Assembly (NCBI RefSeq): GCF_900107545.1
Contig: NZ_FNQZ01000006.1
Span: 62,001 to 126,000, forward strand
Source: Pseudobutyrivibrio sp. ACV-2
GTDB lineage: Bacteria; Bacillota; Clostridia; Lachnospirales; Lachnospiraceae
Length of the DNA: 64,000 bases
Direction: 5' to 3'
Part shown: one piece after another, positions 45,659-55,158 of the stretch
Numbering within the stretch: position 1 is the stretch's first letter
Layout of the letters: each line of letters starts with the position of its first letter
Translations under genes and position numbers: made by a program
The notes under the pieces: generated by a model
Told to the model about the DNA's origin: nothing
What the model saw: the letters and a program-made list of their open reading frames with translations, nothing else
Databases searched by the model: none

Positions 45659-47248
45659 TTATGGCACATAAACCTGTACAAAGTTGTAAAGCTCGCCATC
45701 AACAGCCCCAAGCCATACTAGCATGCCATTAGTCATATAGTATTCGTCCACATCTTGCATTGAGTCAGGGTAGTTGTCACCTTTGAATTCTCTTCCCAGA
45801 AGAAATTCTTCCGTGAGAGTATCACCTGAGTCTGGGCCGCCTTTAACAAACTTTTGAAGAGTGATTTCACAGTTATCCTTGATTGCAAAAGTAACATTTT
45901 TCTCGATAAGTTTTCTCACAGTGCCCTCTGACATCATTGGAACGACAGTGTAGAGTTCCTCGTAATCCTGTTTTTCAAGAGCATAATAGAAGTCATCGTC
46001 ACCGCCCTTTACAAGGAATTTAGAATATCTTGAAGGGGTTAACACATCAGCTTTAAATTCTTCATCTGTTGCATATTCAATCTCTTTATTTACATCCTCA
46101 AAACTTACAGCTGTAAATTGTGTGCCATTTACTGAAAAGATGTTGTCGCCAATCTTTGCATTTTCAACGTCCGTAGCCCTGATTCTTTCTTCTCGGTAAA
46201 TATCTCCGGTTAAAGATTTCTCATCAAATTTGGTTACCTGCATTAACAGATTGTTGTCGTTGTCATAATATTTTTGAGCTTCAAAGGTTTCTGGAGAGGC
46301 ATTTCCCAAACATGAAAGAGATATAGTTTCATCCTTTTCAGCAAATTTTAATATAGGAAAAGCGGCTTCATCCCAACTAAATGTGCTTTCTGATACATCA
46401 TCTGCCGATGCAAAGCTGAAAGTGATATCTGTTCCATTGACCTCATAAGTGAATGGAAGACCGGAAAGCCCATCAGGTGTTTGAGTGGAGCCTGTGGTGT
46501 CACTGTCAAAAATGTAGAAGCTTGAGATGTTGTAAAGGTCATCGCCTTTGTATGCAGCGTATACGGCGCCAGCAAGCTGAGGGATGCCGTCATCTGTTAT
46601 ACCAGCTTTTGTAAATCCAAGTACATTGGCACTTTGGTATTCATCAGATAGCTCATCGAACAAAGAAGAATCTTCTACGATTTCTGTAGTATCATCTTTG
46701 TAGTTGTGATAAACACCATCTTCTGAGGCCATATAGTCGACGGCTGATTCTTCTATAGTAATAAATTTGCCAGTAGCCTTGTCCACGTGACCTTTTATTG
46801 TGGAGTTACGCATTGATAATATAAGGTTGTTGTCCTCAGTTACTGCGATAGGATAAGCTGTTCCACCGCTTTGGACAGTGGTGATTTTTTCAAGAGAACC
46901 GTTATTTTCTACAAATATGGTAGCTTCATAAGTTCCAAGCACCCCATCTCCATTATCAAAAATATAGCTAGTTACTAATAATGCATCTTCGCCATCCGAT
47001 ATAGGCGCGTAAGCGTATGATTGTCCTGGATGGAGATTTGAGATAAGCTCCTCAAAGTTTTTAGGTTCAGTAGATTTTTCACTGGAATTTTCAGTTGTCT
47101 CGCCCTTAGTTTCTTCCTTTGAAGTTTCAGTGGAAGTGTCTGTGGCTGTTTTTCCACAACCAGTGATAGTAGATGCTGCCAACACTGTAGACAGCGAGAT
47201 AATAAGCATTTTTTTTATAATAGGATTACTTACATTGTCTCCATACAT
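45659..47248 (-). CDS. Unknown lipoprotein, 529 aa
   Basis: A 529-residue protein with a signal peptide and lipobox 'TITGC' (Cys near residue 32), a Thr/Ser/Glu-rich linker to about 65, and a large extracellular region with repeated short beta-strand patterns but no motif I recognise. ATG 47248 is used because AGAGGAG lies upstream at good spacing; the frame extends 20 codons further. It is divergent from the NRPS gene with 230 bases between. A role in binding or sensing at the surface is possible but not supported directly. Confidence 0.7.
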   Translation of the reverse strand: MYGDNVSNPIIKKMLIISLSTVLAASTITGCGKTATDTSTETSKEETKGETTENSSEKSTEPKNFEELISNLHPGQSYAYAPISDGEDALLVTSYIFDNGDGVLGTYEATIFVENNGSLEKITTVQSGGTAYPIAVTEDNNLILSMRNSTIKGHVDKATGKFITIEESAVDYMASEDGVYHNYKDDTTEIVEDSSLFDELSDEYQSANVLGFTKAGITDDGIPQLAGAVYAAYKGDDLYNISSFYIFDSDTTGSTQTPDGLSGLPFTYEVNGTDITFSFASADDVSESTFSWDEAAFPILKFAEKDETISLSCLGNASPETFEAQKYYDNDNNLLMQVTKFDEKSLTGDIYREERIRATDVENAKIGDNIFSVNGTQFTAVSFEDVNKEIEYATDEEFKADVLTPSRYSKFLVKGGDDDFYYALEKQDYEELYTVVPMMSEGTVRKLIEKNVTFAIKDNCEITLQKFVKGGPDSGDTLTEEFLLGREFKGDNYPDSMQDVDEYYMTNGMLVWLGAVDGELYNFVQVYVP

Positions 47249-47437
47249 TTGCGAATCTCCTCTTAACTTTAAGTTTGCACAATATTTTTTATTAATTGTT
47301 CTTTCCAAATATAAAATATCATACTCAGTGTCACAGAAATATCACACTACAACAACCCCCATGAAAGAATATATGTCTGAAAATGTGAAAAAAATGTGAC
47401 GATTTCAGAAAATATAGAAATATCCTTCAATAATATC

Positions 47438-47479: not shown

Positions 47480-50400
47480 ATGGACGATTTGCTAAGCCGG
47501 ATTCGAATGAATGTGAAAGAAAATCCGGATATGACAATCATTATTGATCAGGGGGAGAATAATTATTTTACGTACAAGTCACTTGATTTGTATGCGCGAA
47601 AAATCGCCACAAAGCTTGTTCGTAAGGGTGTTTCGAGAAACGATTTCGTCAGCATCGAGATGATGCGCACAAAAGAGTATGTAGCAGCAATGTACGCAGT
47701 ATGGCTGGTTGGGGCAGCGTTTGTTCCGCTGTCGTCTTCTTATCCAGAGGAAAGAAGAGCATTTATTCGCGATAACTGCCATGCCAAAACTGTGATCAAC
47801 ACAAGTTTTCTAAAAGGAGTTGAGAGCGAGGAAATATTCCAAAATGATGTTGTTTCCGATCCACAATCACCAGCTCTGGCTATTTACACTTCCGGTTCCA
47901 CAGGCAAACCTAAGGGAGTGCTGCATTCTCATGCTAGTATTGAGGATTCGGTATTCCGTTACATTGCCTCAATTCCAAGTACAAAAGGCTCTCACACTGC
48001 ACTTGGCGCACCATTTACTTTTGTTGCTTCTGTGCAGGGAGTCTTTACACCACTAGTCACAGGTACTGTATCCTATCTGATGCCATTTGAGGCTATGCGC
48101 GACCCGATTCTTCTGGCAGATTTTATTGAAGAAAATCAGATTAATCGTACATTTATCAGCCCAAAGATGCTCAAGGTGTTTAAGCCAAAGGGAGATAGTC
48201 TGAAAATGGTTTTCACTGGCAGTGAGCGCGTGTCAGATTTCTATACGGACATGTTTGAAACATACGTCGCCTACGGCCAAACAGAGTCAGCCGGCGCAGT
48301 AATGTTTTTCAAAATTGATAAATCCTACAATAATACCCCGATTGGAAAGCCGGTCGAGGGTGTTCGCATACACATTTTGGATGAGCAGGGCAGTGAGGCT
48401 GATGAAGGTGAGCTGTGCCTTGCAGGCATATTTGCAGATGGCTATATAGACCTTCCTGAGCAGACGAAAAATGTCTTTATAGATAATCCATTTGCAAAGC
48501 AGGATGGTTTTGCAAAGCTTTTAAAAACCGGTGATATTGTAAAAAAGGGCGAAGATGGCAATATTATTTACTTAAATCGTAAGGATTGGATGGTGAAAAT
48601 CAACGGTCAGCGTGTGGAGCCGGGAGAAATAGAGACTATCATTAGGCAGACTCCAGGGATAAAGGATGCTGTCCTGAAGGATTTCAAAAATCAGTACGGG
48701 CAAGTGTACCTCGTTGCCTACTACATAGAAAATGAGCCTGTGGATGCCGCCGACATCAAAGAAGCAATAGGACGGAAGCTACCGTCTTATATGGTTCCAG
48801 CATTTTTCGTCAAACTTGATTCATTTCCTATCAATGCCAACGGAAAACTGGATAGAAATGCATTGGTCGAGCCAGAGACCGGGGCTTTCAAAAATGATTA
48901 CGCTGCACCAGAGACGGATATGCAAAAAGCGCTTTGTGCTGCCTTTGAATCTGTGCTTGCTGTTGAAAATGTAGGTATCGACGATGATTTCTTTGCCCTG
49001 GGAGGAGATTCAATCAAGTGTGCCCTGGTATCAGAGGCCTGCAGTAAATATATGATTAAGACTGCAGATATATTTGCCGGAAAAACTCCTCGCATGATTG
49101 AGCGCTTGTTATTACAAAAAGCTAGTGGGAAGAAACATGTAAAGAAGGCTAAAAAAGCGAGAATTTATCCTCTAACTCCACTAGAACGTGGCATGTATCT
49201 TGAACAGAAGATGCATGAGGATTCCACTGTCTATAATCTAAATATTGCTGCGATCATTAAAGGCTCAGATTTCGAGACTGTAAAACAATCTCTAAGTGAG
49301 GTTTTCAAAGCTCACGAGGCCTTTACATCGTATTATGGTGAGGAAAAAGGGCTGCCTGTACGCATTCTTTCTGACAAGCTACCAGAAATCGTTGAGAAGT
49401 CAGCTGCAACTCGTGAGGAAGTTATCGCCATTATCGACAGTTACGCTGAGCCTTTCAATTTAAATGCAGAAATACCTGTCCGCCCGACACTTTATGGAGT
49501 GGCTGATGGCAGCATTATTTTGCATATGGCAATTCATCATATAGCCTTTGACGGAGGTTCTGCCAAGACCTTCGTGAAAGAGCTCATTGATGGTATTGAG
49601 GGAAGAAAAGTCACAGCAGATGGAATTGACCTTTCGGACCTGTATGATGATAGCCTGGCCGATAAGTATGAGAGCGGTATGTCCTTCTACCATGAGCTAT
49701 TTGCAGATGGTGTGCCTGTAAATGAAATGCCGGTCAAAGGAAAACGGCCAAAGGTACATCCACTATCTGACAGAGAAATCAGTTTTGATTATGATAATGC
49801 ACAGCTTAAAGGAATTGATAACATTGCAAGACGTTTCAGCGTTACAGAGTTTGAATTAATTTTTAGTGCGGTGTCTATGGCGCTTGGAAAATATACTGCC
49901 TCTGAGGATGTTGTGCTTGGCATCCCTACCAACATGCGCCCAGAGGATGGAGATAATGTAATAGGTATGTTTGTCAACACAGCACCCGTTCGTGTGAAGC
50001 CAAAGCGTGATGCTGACATAAGCGAATATCTTGCCGCTGTCAGCACTGCAGTACGAAATGCCACTTATGGTGCATATCTTCCATTTGAAGATGTTGTAGC
50101 CGAATTCGTAAAACAGCGAGACGAATCCCGCAACCCGATTTTTGATGTAAGTGTCAATTATATGGTAAATCCGCCTGCATATGATAATAATGGCCTTTCT
50201 GTAGAGTTATACGCTCCACTTCAGAAGATGGGTCGCGATATCGGTATTGTAATCAGAAAAAGTGAAAAAGGCCTGCATTTCATGGTGCAGTATTCAACCG
50301 AACTGTTTGAGGATGAGGTGATAGAAAATTTTGTTGGCCAGATACAGCACACTCTTTCCCTTCTGGGTGGTGATGTGAAAACTGTTCGCGATGCCCTTTC

Positions 50401-53400
50401 ATTGCCTGATAATCAAAGGTCTCGTCTTGAGGCATTTAAGACAGAAGCTACCGCAGAAATTCCTATTACTTTGCTACATAAGCTTTTCGAGCATAGTGCC
50501 TGTGAAAATGCAGATAAGACTGCACTGATTGCAAGGGACGTCAGACTTTCATACCAGGAATTAAACGATAGGGCAAATATAGTAGCCCATAATCTGATAG
50601 CAAGAGGTATCAAGACAGGGGACAGCGTAGCCCTGTTACTTCCAAGAGAAAGCTGCTTTTTTGCATGTATGCTTGGTGTAAATAAAGCAGGCGCTGCATT
50701 CATACCATGCGACCCACAGTATCCGGCAGACAGAATCAACTATATTATTGAGGATTCCGGAGCAGCATTTATTATCACTACTGCTGATAAGCTTTCAGAT
50801 TATCCATCAGAAAAAGCAATCGACGTCAAGGATTTGATGACAGGTGATGCAAAGAATGACCCTGATATTTCAATGAGCGACGATGAACTTAGCTACATTA
50901 TTTACACCTCAGGTTCCACCGGAAAACCTAAGGGAGTAATGCTCAGACATAAGGGCATATGCAATTACCTTATGCCACATCCTGCAAATACACATATGCA
51001 TTATCTGAAGGAGAACACCTCCGTGTATCTGTCTGTTACAACTGTGTCCTTTGACATGTCCTTCAAGGAGCATGCAGCAGCATTTTGTAACGGGAAAACT
51101 CTGGTTTTTGCAGCAGAGGATGAAATGAATGACCCACGAGCATTGGCTACCTTAATGGAGCAGTACAAGGTTGATTGTTTCAATGCCACACCATCAAGAT
51201 TGCAGCAGTATCTGGAATATGAGCCTTTCAGGAAAGCCCTTTCTAGGTGCAAGCTTGTAATGTCGGGGGGTGAAGGCTATCCAATTTCACTGCGTGATGC
51301 AATTAAAAAGTGCAGCAGTGATATACGAATCATCAACACTTATGGTCCTACTGAAATCACTGTATCCTGCAATGCAGCAGACCTTACTGATGTCGATTAT
51401 GTGACTGTTGGAAGACCACTGCTTAATTACCATGAGATAATCGTAGATAAGTTTGGGGATATTGCACCATATGGAGTGATTGGTGAATTATATATCGGTG
51501 GAACAGGCGTAGCAAAAGGCTATAGAAATCTTCCGGAAAAGACAGCTGGTGTCTTTGTTAACTACGAAAACTGTCTGATGTACCGTTCTGGAGACTATGC
51601 TAAGTGGGATAATGAGGGAAAAGTACAGATTCTTGGCAGACTTGATAATCAGGTAAAGCTGAGAGGTCTTCGCATTGAGCTTGACGAGATTCAGGGACTT
51701 ATTGCTATGCAGCCTCACATCAGAAAAGCAGAGGTAGTTATACGAAAACTGAACGGACAGGATAATCTGTGTGCTTACTTTACAGCTGATACCGAAATCG
51801 ATGTGGATGAGCTTAGAACTGAGCTCAAGAAGCATCTGACCCATTACATGGTGCCTACTGCTTACCTGCAGATGAACGAGATGCCTATGACCGCAAACGG
51901 CAAGACTGATATCAAAAAGCTGCCGGACCCTGTTCCTGTAAACCTGGGTGAATATGTAGCCCCAGCCAATGAAATGGAGGAATTTTTCTGTCAAATCTTT
52001 GGAAAAGCCCTTCATTTGGAGCGTGTTGGAGCAACAGATGATTTCTTCGAGATAGGTGGTACATCGCTCCTGGTAACTGCAGTGGTAATGTACGCTTCGG
52101 AAAAAGGCTACGAGATAACCTATGGTGATATCTTCAAATACACCACACCAAGGGCTTTAGCGGAGCTTTTCAAAGATGGCGAAATAAATGATACAAATAA
52201 ATTATTCGACTTTGATGATTATGATTACACCAAAATCAATAAACTGCTTGCTAATAATACCGTGGAAGCCTTCAAGTCTGGGCAACTTCGTGATATAGGT
52301 AATATCCTGCTCACAGGTGCTACCGGCTATATGGGTGCCCACCTGCTGGCAGAATATCTAAAGACTGAAAAGGGCAAAGCATACTGCTTAATCCGCAAAG
52401 GCAAATTCGATACGGCCTTCAAGCGACTTGAAAATATCATGTTCTATTACTTCGGCTCAACCTATGAGAAGGAACTTAATGAGCGAGTAGAAGTAATGAA
52501 CGGTGATGTAACCGATTACAAGTATTTTGAGCCTATGGAGAATCTTCCAATCAACACGGTGTTTAACTGTGCAGCCAACGTGAAGCATTTTTCTAACGGA
52601 ACTGATATAGAGGATATCAATGTAGGTGGAGTGACCAATTGTGTCAGACTGTGCAAGAAAAACGGTGCAAGATTAATTCATTTTTCCACCATATCTGTAT
52701 CGGGTACAACAGAAGATGTGACAAAGCTCAGCCGCAGGGAATTGGACGAGCAGTCCCTTTACTTTGGCCAAACACTGGATAATAAATATACATCTTCAAA
52801 GTTGATGGGAGAGCGTGTGGTACTTGAGGCAGTGGCTGAAGGCCTGGATGCAAAGGTAATTCGTGTAGGAACCCTTGCGGCTCGTGAGTCGGACGGAGAG
52901 TTTCAGATCAATTTCCTGACCAACAATTTTATGGGAAGACTGCGCTCTTATAGCTTGCTTGGATGTTTCCCATACAACATGATTGAAAATCAGGTATGCA
53001 TGGGAGCAATAGACCGTTCCTGCGAAGCCTTTCTCAAGCTTGCAAAAACACCTGGGGAATGCTGTGTGTTCAATGCGGTAAACAACCATACTCTTCCTCT
53101 CGGTGACATTATCCGCCGGATGAATCACAATGGAAGTCATATTAACTTTGTGGAGTATGATGAATTTGCAGAGGTTCTGAAGGAAGCACAGAAGAATCCA
53201 GATAAAGCGGCTATTCTTTCAAGTATGACAGCCTACATGAACACTGCCCACGGCAAGAAGATATCAGCTATTCCGTACAAGTGCCATTACACCACCCAGA
53301 TACTTGCCCGCATGGGATTTTTCTGGAATGCCAGCAGTGAAAAGTATGTTGATGATTTTATCAATGTATTGCGAGGTTTCATGTTCTTCAGCAGTGACAA

Positions 53401-53413
53401 TCTGAAACGATAG
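47480..53413 (+). CDS. Two-module nonribosomal peptide synthetase ending in a reductase
   Basis: A 1977-residue NRPS with order A-T-C-A-T-R. A1 (about 10-475) has 'YTSGSTGKPKG' but its A4 motif reads 'FTFVAS' with Val in place of the usual Asp that binds the amino group. T1 has 'GGDSIK' (Ser511). The condensation domain (about 560-980) has 'HHIAFDG' near 686. A2 (about 1000-1480) has 'YTSGSTGKPKG' near 1140 and a normal 'FDMS'. T2 has 'GGTSLL' (Ser1529). The terminal NAD(P)-dependent reductase (about 1605-1977) has 'TGATGYMGAH' and 'YTSSK', releasing an aldehyde or alcohol. AGGGG ribosome site. Downstream is a MATE exporter fused to a GHKL domain. Confidence 0.95.
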   Translation: MDDLLSRIRMNVKENPDMTIIIDQGENNYFTYKSLDLYARKIATKLVRKGVSRNDFVSIEMMRTKEYVAAMYAVWLVGAAFVPLSSSYPEERRAFIRDNCHAKTVINTSFLKGVESEEIFQNDVVSDPQSPALAIYTSGSTGKPKGVLHSHASIEDSVFRYIASIPSTKGSHTALGAPFTFVASVQGVFTPLVTGTVSYLMPFEAMRDPILLADFIEENQINRTFISPKMLKVFKPKGDSLKMVFTGSERVSDFYTDMFETYVAYGQTESAGAVMFFKIDKSYNNTPIGKPVEGVRIHILDEQGSEADEGELCLAGIFADGYIDLPEQTKNVFIDNPFAKQDGFAKLLKTGDIVKKGEDGNIIYLNRKDWMVKINGQRVEPGEIETIIRQTPGIKDAVLKDFKNQYGQVYLVAYYIENEPVDAADIKEAIGRKLPSYMVPAFFVKLDSFPINANGKLDRNALVEPETGAFKNDYAAPETDMQKALCAAFESVLAVENVGIDDDFFALGGDSIKCALVSEACSKYMIKTADIFAGKTPRMIERLLLQKASGKKHVKKAKKARIYPLTPLERGMYLEQKMHEDSTVYNLNIAAIIKGSDFETVKQSLSEVFKAHEAFTSYYGEEKGLPVRILSDKLPEIVEKSAATREEVIAIIDSYAEPFNLNAEIPVRPTLYGVADGSIILHMAIHHIAFDGGSAKTFVKELIDGIEGRKVTADGIDLSDLYDDSLADKYESGMSFYHELFADGVPVNEMPVKGKRPKVHPLSDREISFDYDNAQLKGIDNIARRFSVTEFELIFSAVSMALGKYTASEDVVLGIPTNMRPEDGDNVIGMFVNTAPVRVKPKRDADISEYLAAVSTAVRNATYGAYLPFEDVVAEFVKQRDESRNPIFDVSVNYMVNPPAYDNNGLSVELYAPLQKMGRDIGIVIRKSEKGLHFMVQYSTELFEDEVIENFVGQIQHTLSLLGGDVKTVRDALSLPDNQRSRLEAFKTEATAEIPITLLHKLFEHSACENADKTALIARDVRLSYQELNDRANIVAHNLIARGIKTGDSVALLLPRESCFFACMLGVNKAGAAFIPCDPQYPADRINYIIEDSGAAFIITTADKLSDYPSEKAIDVKDLMTGDAKNDPDISMSDDELSYIIYTSGSTGKPKGVMLRHKGICNYLMPHPANTHMHYLKENTSVYLSVTTVSFDMSFKEHAAAFCNGKTLVFAAEDEMNDPRALATLMEQYKVDCFNATPSRLQQYLEYEPFRKALSRCKLVMSGGEGYPISLRDAIKKCSSDIRIINTYGPTEITVSCNAADLTDVDYVTVGRPLLNYHEIIVDKFGDIAPYGVIGELYIGGTGVAKGYRNLPEKTAGVFVNYENCLMYRSGDYAKWDNEGKVQILGRLDNQVKLRGLRIELDEIQGLIAMQPHIRKAEVVIRKLNGQDNLCAYFTADTEIDVDELRTELKKHLTHYMVPTAYLQMNEMPMTANGKTDIKKLPDPVPVNLGEYVAPANEMEEFFCQIFGKALHLERVGATDDFFEIGGTSLLVTAVVMYASEKGYEITYGDIFKYTTPRALAELFKDGEINDTNKLFDFDDYDYTKINKLLANNTVEAFKSGQLRDIGNILLTGATGYMGAHLLAEYLKTEKGKAYCLIRKGKFDTAFKRLENIMFYYFGSTYEKELNERVEVMNGDVTDYKYFEPMENLPINTVFNCAANVKHFSNGTDIEDINVGGVTNCVRLCKKNGARLIHFSTISVSGTTEDVTKLSRRELDEQSLYFGQTLDNKYTSSKLMGERVVLEAVAEGLDAKVIRVGTLAARESDGEFQINFLTNNFMGRLRSYSLLGCFPYNMIENQVCMGAIDRSCEAFLKLAKTPGECCVFNAVNNHTLPLGDIIRRMNHNGSHINFVEYDEFAEVLKEAQKNPDKAAILSSMTAYMNTAHGKKISAIPYKCHYTTQILARMGFFWNASSEKYVDDFINVLRGFMFFSSDNLKR

Positions 53414-53427
53414 GCAGGGGGATTGGG

Positions 53428-55158
53428 ATGAAGAGAAGAGGTACACTACTAAATAAAAAGTATAATGCCCTGCTGGTGGCAACCCTTGCTATGACAGCCT
53501 CTAACTACCTTGCCGGTATTTTTGATGGCATCATGGTGGGCAGGATACTTGGTACTATGGAGCTGTATGCCATAAATTTGACAACGGCTATCATATTTTT
53601 ACGAAGTATTCCTATAGCCCTGTTTACCTTTGGTGGCAACACATTATCCGTCTATCATAAGAGTCAGCGTGATTCGAAATCAGCTAATATCGTGTTCACA
53701 CTGTCATTCTGGGCGGGAGTACTGATTAGCGTACTTATATCAGGGGTTGGTATTTCTTTGCTGAAACCTACTGCAATGCTGCTTGCGCAGGGAAAAGAAG
53801 AACTTGCTGGACTTGTAATGGATTATCTGCTGCCCCTGTGGATTCTGACCCCACTTGTGGCTGTAGTCAATCAAACAGCTGCCTACGCCAGAACTGACGG
53901 GCATAAGGAAAAAGCTACAATGCTTCCCATAGTATCAAATGTAGTTAACTTAATCTGTGACTACATTTATATGGCCCTATTTGGCTGGGGAATTGCTGGA
54001 GCTGGTTGGGCGACCATCACCGGCTATGCAGTAGGTGTTGTTATGTCGGTTCTTTACTTAAGGTCGGATGGAAGAACTGTCCATTTCACAAAAGATGCCA
54101 TTACCAGGCTCAAAGCTCTGGGTGAAATATTCCGCGTGGGACTGCCTTCAGCATTGATATATGTATGTAGTTTCATAAGACTGTTTTTCACAAATGCCAT
54201 TATTCTTTCATTTACCGGCATAATGGGAGGAAAGATTGCTTCGGTGTCTTTCTCCCTGAATAGTCTTGCCTTTATATTCGTAGAGGGGGCATCTATGACC
54301 CTTCTGCCGATACTTGGTGCGTTGTACGGGGAGAAGGATGTCAATGGCCAAAGGCTTACACTACGTTATGGAATGATATTCAGTATCGCAATATCCTTGG
54401 GGGTGTTTATTATATCCGAGCTGTTTCCTGTTCAGCTTGCGATGCTATATGGTATGAAAGACCCTGAAATCATTCAGGTGTTTGCAGTCACATTCCGTAT
54501 AGTTTCGCTGAACATCCCTATACTGGCAGTCATATACGTGATGCGATCCTTTTTTCAGGCAACAAAACAGGAGAAGCTTGCCAACCTGATAGTCATTCTG
54601 GATGGCGCTTTGGCAATCGTACCCCTAATGTTTTGGTTTGCACATTATAATATTTACTGGCTTTGGGCTTCCTTCCCGGTATCCAAACTGGTAACAGTAG
54701 CTATTACATTAATAGCAATGTTGATTAGCTGGAAAACAGAGCATAAGCAGAACATTCTTGGAATTCAGGAACAGGACTGCGTTTTATATGATTTTTCTGC
54801 CAAGAAGGATATTAATCAGGTCATAAAGGCTTCACAGGAAGCTCAGGACTTTTGTGAGAAGAACAATGTTCCTAAAAGAACAGCAAATGCTGTTGGTGTA
54901 ACGGTGGAGGAACTATGTCACAATATCGTGGATTATTCACAGGGAAGCAGTGACGCCATTGATGTGTGTATACGCATTTTCCCTGAAATGGTAAATGTGC
55001 GCCTGCGTGACGATGGTGTAGAATTTGATCCTACCAATTATCTGGATGATAGTGGAAAACGTATAACCGGTCTAAAACTGGCACGAATGCTGAGTTCGTC
55101 CATAGATTATAATCGTGTGCTAGGCTTTAATGTGACAAATATTGCTATAAATTACTAA
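53428..55158 (+). CDS. MATE exporter fused to a C-terminal GHKL/HATPase domain
   Basis: A 576-residue protein. Residues 1-440 are a complete 12-helix MATE transporter ('KYNALLVATLAMTASNYLAGIFDGIMVGRILG' and 'IFRVGLPSALIYVCSFIRLFFTNAIIL' begin the two halves). Residues about 445-576 form a cytoplasmic ATP-binding domain of the anti-sigma/serine-kinase HATPase_c_2 type: 'GVTVEELCHNIVDYSQGS' is the N-box and 'VRLRDDGVEFDP' the G1-like D-x-G. GGGGG/GGGATTGGG precedes the ATG, 15 bases after the NRPS stop, so it probably exports the NRPS product. The fusion may couple export to signalling. Confidence 0.85.
   Translation: MKRRGTLLNKKYNALLVATLAMTASNYLAGIFDGIMVGRILGTMELYAINLTTAIIFLRSIPIALFTFGGNTLSVYHKSQRDSKSANIVFTLSFWAGVLISVLISGVGISLLKPTAMLLAQGKEELAGLVMDYLLPLWILTPLVAVVNQTAAYARTDGHKEKATMLPIVSNVVNLICDYIYMALFGWGIAGAGWATITGYAVGVVMSVLYLRSDGRTVHFTKDAITRLKALGEIFRVGLPSALIYVCSFIRLFFTNAIILSFTGIMGGKIASVSFSLNSLAFIFVEGASMTLLPILGALYGEKDVNGQRLTLRYGMIFSIAISLGVFIISELFPVQLAMLYGMKDPEIIQVFAVTFRIVSLNIPILAVIYVMRSFFQATKQEKLANLIVILDGALAIVPLMFWFAHYNIYWLWASFPVSKLVTVAITLIAMLISWKTEHKQNILGIQEQDCVLYDFSAKKDINQVIKASQEAQDFCEKNNVPKRTANAVGVTVEELCHNIVDYSQGSSDAIDVCIRIFPEMVNVRLRDDGVEFDPTNYLDDSGKRITGLKLARMLSSSIDYNRVLGFNVTNIAINY

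Follow-up and report, generated by a model that had tools for sequence, protein, structure and literature searches.

Introduction

The aureusimine/phevalin synthetase AusA (NCBIfam model NF047350) joins adenylation (A), carrier (T), condensation (C) and reductase (R) domains in the order A-T-C-A-T-R, and in ruminopeptin-type synthetases an acyl group enters via a leading C domain. Here we analyzed a 64,000-nucleotide stretch of Pseudobutyrivibrio sp. ACV-2 (contig NZ_FNQZ01000006.1, positions 62,001 to 126,000; hereafter the window, whose numbering is used throughout), which encodes a nonribosomal peptide synthetase (NRPS) of 1977 amino acids (aa) in a single open reading frame (ORF; 47480..53413, + strand). 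An initial annotation had read this ORF as A-T-C-A-T-R with a Val in place of Asp in core motif A4 of the first A domain (A1), and had proposed an acid without an alpha-amino group as the first unit of an N-acyl amino aldehyde or alcohol that could not cyclise to a pyrazinone.

Position 235 in GrsA numbering, occupied by this Asp, and position 325, the Pro of the YGPTE motif of amino-acid domains, are also replaced in described A domains. In StsA, an alpha-keto-acid domain, Ile306 replaces the Asp and Met415 the Pro, and the M415P substitution abolished adenylation, while aryl-acid domains are described without Asp235 and without YGPTE (PMC11253843). A two-module NRPS of Methanobrevibacter ruminantium, mru0068, is placed near a MatE exporter, serine phosphatases and an anti-sigma factor antagonist, and its ending is a thioester reductase according to the figure legend and a thioesterase according to the main text (PMC2812497).

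Results

A1 lacks both Asp235 and Pro325

Pfam models for AMP-binding (two stretches), Condensation (residues 560-962), PP-binding (two) and NAD_binding_4 (1611-1817) matched the ORF, bearing out the order A1-T1-C-A2-T2-R. A1 spans residues 11-465 (47510..48874; all NRPS features lie on the + strand). By phmmer, its best solved relatives were NRPS A domains, LgrA first, and the segment FTFVASVQG of A1 aligned gap-free with FSFDGSALD of LgrA A1. Therefore Val182 (codon 48023..48025), which stands opposite the LgrA Asp and was also located by the code columns, corresponds to GrsA Asp235. The Val-for-Asp reading thus held, and an Asp present but shifted, which the initial annotation had named as a possible objection, was not seen in this gap-free local alignment to a solved relative. 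A second change, beyond that annotation, was found by alignment and code columns at Gln267 (48278..48280), which occupies the place of Pro325, so that the A5 motif reads YGQTE.

The ten-residue specificity codes, whose extraction had been proposed as a check, were VAQFFGAGAK for A1 (V235, A236, Q239, F278, F299, G301, A322, G330, A331 and K517), with no Asp or Glu among the ten positions, and DMKNMGTVSK for A2. As a control of the code columns, Escherichia coli EntF, a known Ser domain, read DVWHFSLVDK (9/10 to a printed Ser code), and two domains of unknown substrate gave exact printed Leu and Thr codes; in the most distant members of the family described below (L109 and L099), single code letters vary with the alignment used. 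On TIGR01733, the model of amino-acid adenylation with a curated cut-off of 317.4 bits, A1 scored 261.5 bits, below the cut-off, and A2 scored 356.7 bits, above it.

A family of starter domains shares the two replacements

A genome scan confirmed 221 stretches, the best 80 of which were kept, representing 78 distinct loci (L numbers). A domain was counted as starter-like if its match covered at least 330 aa and lay close to the start of an ORF, and 73 were obtained from the 78 loci and the window, with the window's A1 included and the proteins L006 and L007 of its own genome left out. Position 235 was V in 62, A in 7, I in 4 and D in none of them, and position 325 was Q in 63, T in 6, S in 2, M in 1, A in 1 and P in none. 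Given a non-Asp residue at 235 in 73/73 starters, Val182 is therefore not a matter of chance. Asp235 was found in 96 of the 99 remaining A domains (the window's A2 being counted twice, as itself and as L005), and 93 of those also had Pro325; the three others, all from the window's genome, are Thr-coded and have Ile at 325. The three remaining domains without Asp235 were the ligase-like L006 and L031 and a starter fragment, L073. A second sample comprised 20 further stretches, out of 42 listed matches, from 299 genomes belonging to the same family; 18 of these stretches contained a domain lacking both Asp235 and Pro325, while L100 and L108 showed Asp235 domains only.

A quick tree was built from 98 chosen A domains, 42 of them labelled as lacking Asp235. 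Of these 42 rows, 41 formed one clade (Shimodaira–Hasegawa-like approximate likelihood ratio test (SH-aLRT) support of 100), which sits among NRPS A domains and apart from EntE, MenE and FadD. The 42nd row, the ligase-like ORF L031, grouped with these three and a ligase of the window's own genome. When the tree was repeated minus six long rows (MenE, L031, L109, L007, L008 and L006), 40/40 starters lay on one side of a branch with a support of 100. Both trees are quick ones without bootstraps, in which EntE is a long branch and StsA and McyG are absent from the rows. The comparison with aryl-acid domains that the initial annotation had proposed thus placed EntE apart from the starters. Descent with EntE/DhbE-type aryl-acid ligases was not observed in these rows, the 41 starters falling among NRPS A domains and EntE with other ligases. 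Within the sampled set, NRPS A domains seem to have given rise to the starter lineage a single time. The loss of Asp235 and Pro325 across the starters, which form one clade among NRPS A domains, argues for A1 as a dedicated starter, whose substrate is probably an alpha-keto or aliphatic acid. A literature search, with many journals outside its coverage and articles available in part, recognised no paper describing this starter family.

Core motifs of NRPSs have catalytic roles, and nearly all of 48 full-length aligned rows (the window NRPS and 47 relatives) conserve the core residues in the motifs of the ATP site and of the carrier, condensation and reductase domains. With A* for a starter, T domains unscored and cut ORFs tallied separately, the architectures were A*-C-A-R in 50 ORFs (the window's gene included), A*-C-A-C-A-R in 10 and A*-C-A-C-A-C-A-R in 4. 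Six relatives were scanned with Pfam, and the four of 979-1047 aa were A-T-C loading modules. One stand-alone starter module (A-T-C; L062:22950-25886) lies near a MATE-HATPase gene and is the second on a contig with a two-module NRPS.

The C domain of the window (49157..50365; HHIAFDG intact) fell in a C clade of 20 rows (SH-aLRT 100), all of which follow starters, and other starters pair with C domains from other clades. A candidate starter C domain, in L074 with no A domain before it, was rejected because that ORF is cut at the locus edge and really begins with a starter A domain. In L079-L081, L084-L086 and L089, A2 is 73-76% like the window's (best stretch), and the starter before it only 37-41% alike; starter modules therefore seem to be swapped. 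Titles of 59 of the 78 loci carry ruminant labels, where RUG/RGIG denotes ruminant gut genomes. The same starter family, at 48% identity, occurs in L082, a goat metagenome-assembled genome (MAG) labelled Synergistaceae, by cross-phylum transfer or in a mis-binned contig.

The A1 pocket points to a probable acid substrate without an alpha-amino group

A1 (V, Q) and 73/73 starters follow the StsA-type residue rule of an aliphatic residue at 235 and a non-Pro residue at 325 (PMC11253843), a pattern that by itself may also suit hydroxy, plain aliphatic or aryl acids. The YGQTE change fits keto or aliphatic acids; loss of these two residues is likewise reported for a keto-acid domain of solved structure. 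When position 235 was ignored, Leu/Ile/Val codes ranked top for 6 of the 9 starter codes tried, at only 4-5 of 9 positions. No acid-making gene was seen beside the window NRPS among the window ORFs and by Pfam, which fits an acid from central metabolism. That no acid-activating gene lies nearby holds for the window only; as a statement on the relatives it was ruled out by the 9/73 loci in which the NRPS has a PaaK/F390-synthetase-like AMP ligase close by. A separate ligase cluster of 7 loci was a single-linkage mixture of NRPS starter A fragments and stand-alone acyl-CoA ligases. Probably, then, the A1 substrate lacks an alpha-amino group, as had been proposed, although an aryl-acid ligase of the EntE type is unlikely by descent; an alpha-keto acid in particular is a tentative choice, at somewhat less than even odds.

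A2 has a near-constant code and precedes a reductase domain

A2 (50486..51919 by Pfam, limits approximate) is an ordinary amino-acid domain that keeps Asp235, and its code is near-constant across relatives: at eight specificity positions of the 48 full-length rows, 2 changes in total were counted in A2 versus 59 in A1. In variability, positions 299 and 322 of A1 lie in the 95th percentile; they show 18 and 17 changes, where the mean is 6.2. Set tests against randomly drawn columns gave 4118/200000 for the contrast between the A1 and A2 pockets, and 12789/200000 in a stricter version. The contrast is thus only moderately unusual, and diversifying selection on the A1 pocket was dropped as a conclusion, the data being suggestive only. 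The A domain preceding R had a D[ML]KN code in 68/82 cases, a tally that includes L116, L124 and L131, refetches of genes already counted, two of the three with D[ML]KN.

Among the codes compared, a printed homoserine code, DLKNLGTDVK, was the best match to A2 at 6/10, in a table of codes from three papers, so that a better match elsewhere is possible. Relative to this code, which has the homoserine form DLKNxG[ST]DVK, A2 has Met for Leu at 236 and 299 and VS for DV at 330/331, and a variant among the relatives, DLKNLGTISK, reached 8/10 to the homoserine code. Homoserine is thus a lead rather than proof, and we hold it tentatively as the A2 residue.

The carrier domains T1 (LGGDS at residues 507-511; 48911..49114 by Pfam and motif, limits approximate) and T2 (IGGTS; 51986..52168) bracket C and A2, and the last is followed by an SDR-type (short-chain dehydrogenase/reductase) thioester reductase domain R (52310..53359 by Pfam and motifs, end approximate) with the nucleotide motif TGATGYMG, the Thr and YxxxK present. 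R matched the AusA reductase domain at 128 bits and another NRPS reductase, PDB entry 6vtj, its best match, at 242 bits; we take 6vtj to come from mru0068. Reductive release would yield an N-acyl amino aldehyde; in the case of homoserine this aldehyde would cyclise to a lactol, the reduced counterpart of an N-acyl-homoserine lactone. The initial annotation's N-acyl amino aldehyde or alcohol, an acid in amide linkage to one amino acid and released by reduction, is supported to this extent, and a pyrazinone is not expected from a chain whose A1 lacks Asp235 and Pro325.

Exporter and regulatory genes accompany the synthetase in many relatives

Separated from the NRPS by 14 bases, a downstream gene encodes a MATE exporter of 576 aa (53428..55158, + strand) with a fused C-terminal RsbW-like HATPase_c_2 domain (54808-55116). 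In 73 loci with an A2-like ORF, many on cut contigs, single-linkage clusters of flanking ORFs contained MATE-HATPase in 40 loci, SpoIIE phosphatase with HATPase in 39, PGA_cap in 26, STAS in 17, ABC transporter genes in 15, phosphopantetheinyl transferase (PPTase) in 13 and the PaaK-like ligase in 9. At L012:15935-19490 the MATE-RsbW-like fusion of relatives is followed by a SpoIIE phosphatase which also bears such a kinase domain. Of the shared neighbors the window retains the MATE exporter only, the other window neighbors tested not being shared, and SpoIIE-like and PPTase genes are located elsewhere in its genome. The PaaK-like ligase lies upstream in L033, L034, L036, L040, L049 and L062 and downstream in L050, L051 and L068, with TIGR02304 as its best NCBIfam model at a score far below the cut-off. 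Paired ABC transporter genes and PaaK-like genes co-occur in several loci (e.g. L033, L034, L036, L040 and L049), and there are therefore seemingly two kinds of cassette.

A full-length orthologue was found in 1/29 genomes of the genus, the window's own, and three others have 33-38% matches; the GC content of the NRPS is 43.1%, versus 38.0% and 39.5% beside it. This offset, with the presence in a single genome of the genus, suggests that the NRPS was gained horizontally. Upstream of the NRPS, a 549-aa ORF with a lipoprotein-like start (45659-47308, − strand) had no match in Pfam, NCBIfam or the ORFs of loci L001-L089. Another NRPS cluster of the same genome is larger and includes a PPTase gene (C37:234082-263280; L001-L004, L008 and L009); in it, three codes are Thr-type (Ile at 325) and one aliphatic, a reductase follows one Thr-type domain, and the code DPRHLAVLAK is 9/10 to a printed aminoadipate code.

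Discussion

The enzyme is of a known NRPS kind with an unusual dedicated starter. We propose, with a probability of about 0.65, that it builds a non-amino starter acid and one amino acid, with homoserine as the lead, into a product that is released reductively and exported by the MATE protein. A1 would adenylate an acid without an alpha-amino group, most likely an alpha-keto or branched/aliphatic acid of central metabolism, and load T1; C would couple this acid to the amino acid from A2; R would reduce the N-acyl amino acid off the enzyme, giving an aldehyde rather than an alcohol, the homoserine version existing as a cyclic lactol; and the adjacent MATE protein would export it.

Several points weigh against this proposal. 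R reached 148.5 bits on TIGR01746, under the cut-off of 213.35. No ketoreductase was found in the NRPS by Pfam, in contrast to the keto-acid module described in PMC11355689, and the PaaK/F390-synthetase-like ligases of relatives could supply an activated acid. Val at 235 does not by itself prove a non-amino acid substrate, because McyG has Val there and yet is described as a Phe domain (PMC11253843). As for A2, Thr codes and one Gln/Glu code (DAVQMGCVDK) match it at 5/10, close behind homoserine; among the family codes, DMKS and DFKG come closest to Thr, DMKNI gives a tie, and neither DVLK nor DVMS suggests homoserine. Lys239 of A2 may fit an acidic side chain, and ruminopeptin, an N-acyl Leu-Glu aldehyde, ends in a Glu aldehyde (PMC8518294).

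The McyG precedent, the placement of A1 among amino-acid A domains in the trees and the AusA-like domain order, with AusA the best NCBIfam model, would all suit an A1 that activates a hydrophobic L-amino acid without Asp235 and leads to an ordinary dipeptide aldehyde or pyrazinone. We regard this as improbable: Pro325 is gone along with Asp235 in all starters, the A1 code has neither Asp nor Glu, A1 falls below the TIGR01733 cut-off, and the AusA model gives 1025 bits against a cut-off of 2500. Loading of an aryl acid (benzoate, phenylacetate or phenylpropionate) on an NRPS-type pocket, with an N-aroyl or N-arylacyl amino aldehyde as product, likewise appears unlikely, for A1 does not group with EntE, itself a long branch, and no PaaK-like ligase lies beside the window NRPS; the loss of Asp235 and YGPTE in known aryl-acid domains, the room that small residues at 322, 330 and 331 may leave in A1, and the ligase in 9/73 loci speak for it. 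A decayed or unspecific A1, which would load with a pocket that varies under relaxed constraint, is very improbable. Such decay agrees with the only moderately unusual pocket contrast, but the ATP-site motifs persist in nearly all rows, the A10 Lys in 48/48, and positions 278, 301 and 517 are almost invariant, unlike 299 and 322.

Independently of the acid, A2 may load Glu or Asp, and the product would then be an N-acyl Glu/Asp aldehyde, a ruminopeptin-like protease inhibitor. Lys239, the Gln/Glu code, ruminopeptin itself and a Leu-like code before the DMKN-type domain in some three-module relatives make this a possibility, but on balance not a likely one, as homoserine codes fit better (6/10, or 8/10 for DLKNLGTISK) and share D-x-K-N-x-G-T with A2. 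The initial annotation's view of such aldehydes as typical protease inhibitors is accordingly less supported, with the A2 code nearest to homoserine and with exporter and partner-switch neighbors, although ruminopeptin keeps it alive.

If the proposed lactol were real, its purpose might lie in signal chemistry near that of N-acyl-homoserine lactones (AHLs), possibly made without a LuxI enzyme, and it could partly account for the AHL-like activity of rumen fluid. Producers of that activity are called unidentified in a 2025 review (PMC12086679), and an AHL-producing Pseudomonas isolate from the rumen is in print (PMC5954215). It is doubtful, though conceivable from the codes, that the whole family is an NRPS route of gut anaerobes to N-acyl-homoserine lactols in which the homoserine head is fixed and the acyl tail varies. 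If the reading of A1 holds, a lineage of starters specialised for acids lacking an amino group would be common to Clostridia of gut and rumen and to a single goat MAG with the label Synergistaceae. Fused to a head that is near-constant in its amino acid and forms the aldehyde, these starters would make up a natural set of acyl variants. The cassette would also appear to place an exporter and a partner-switching kinase domain in one protein and so to couple them directly, to our knowledge an uncommon regulatory link.

Compared with known systems, the window NRPS is homologous to AusA over residues 11-1962 and in the R domain, and NF047350 is its best NCBIfam model at 1025.4 bits, below the cut-off of 2500; unlike AusA, its A1 has neither Asp235 nor Pro325. 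It resembles StsA in a hydrophobic residue at 235 and a non-Pro residue in A5, as compared by published residues (PMC11253843), and differs from it in that Pfam found no ketoreductase. The predicted product is like the N-acylated aldehydes of gut bacteria, from ruminopeptin to that of the N-octanoyl-Met-Phe-H cluster (PMC8518294, PMC12327764), but unlike ruminopeptin-type synthetases the window NRPS has a dedicated A-T module for the acid, followed by one amino acid. The first module of mru0068 is described with a C domain (PMC2812497), whereas that of the window has none; likened by description, the set of MATE exporter and partner-switch genes in the loci of the window family resembles that of the mru0068 locus.

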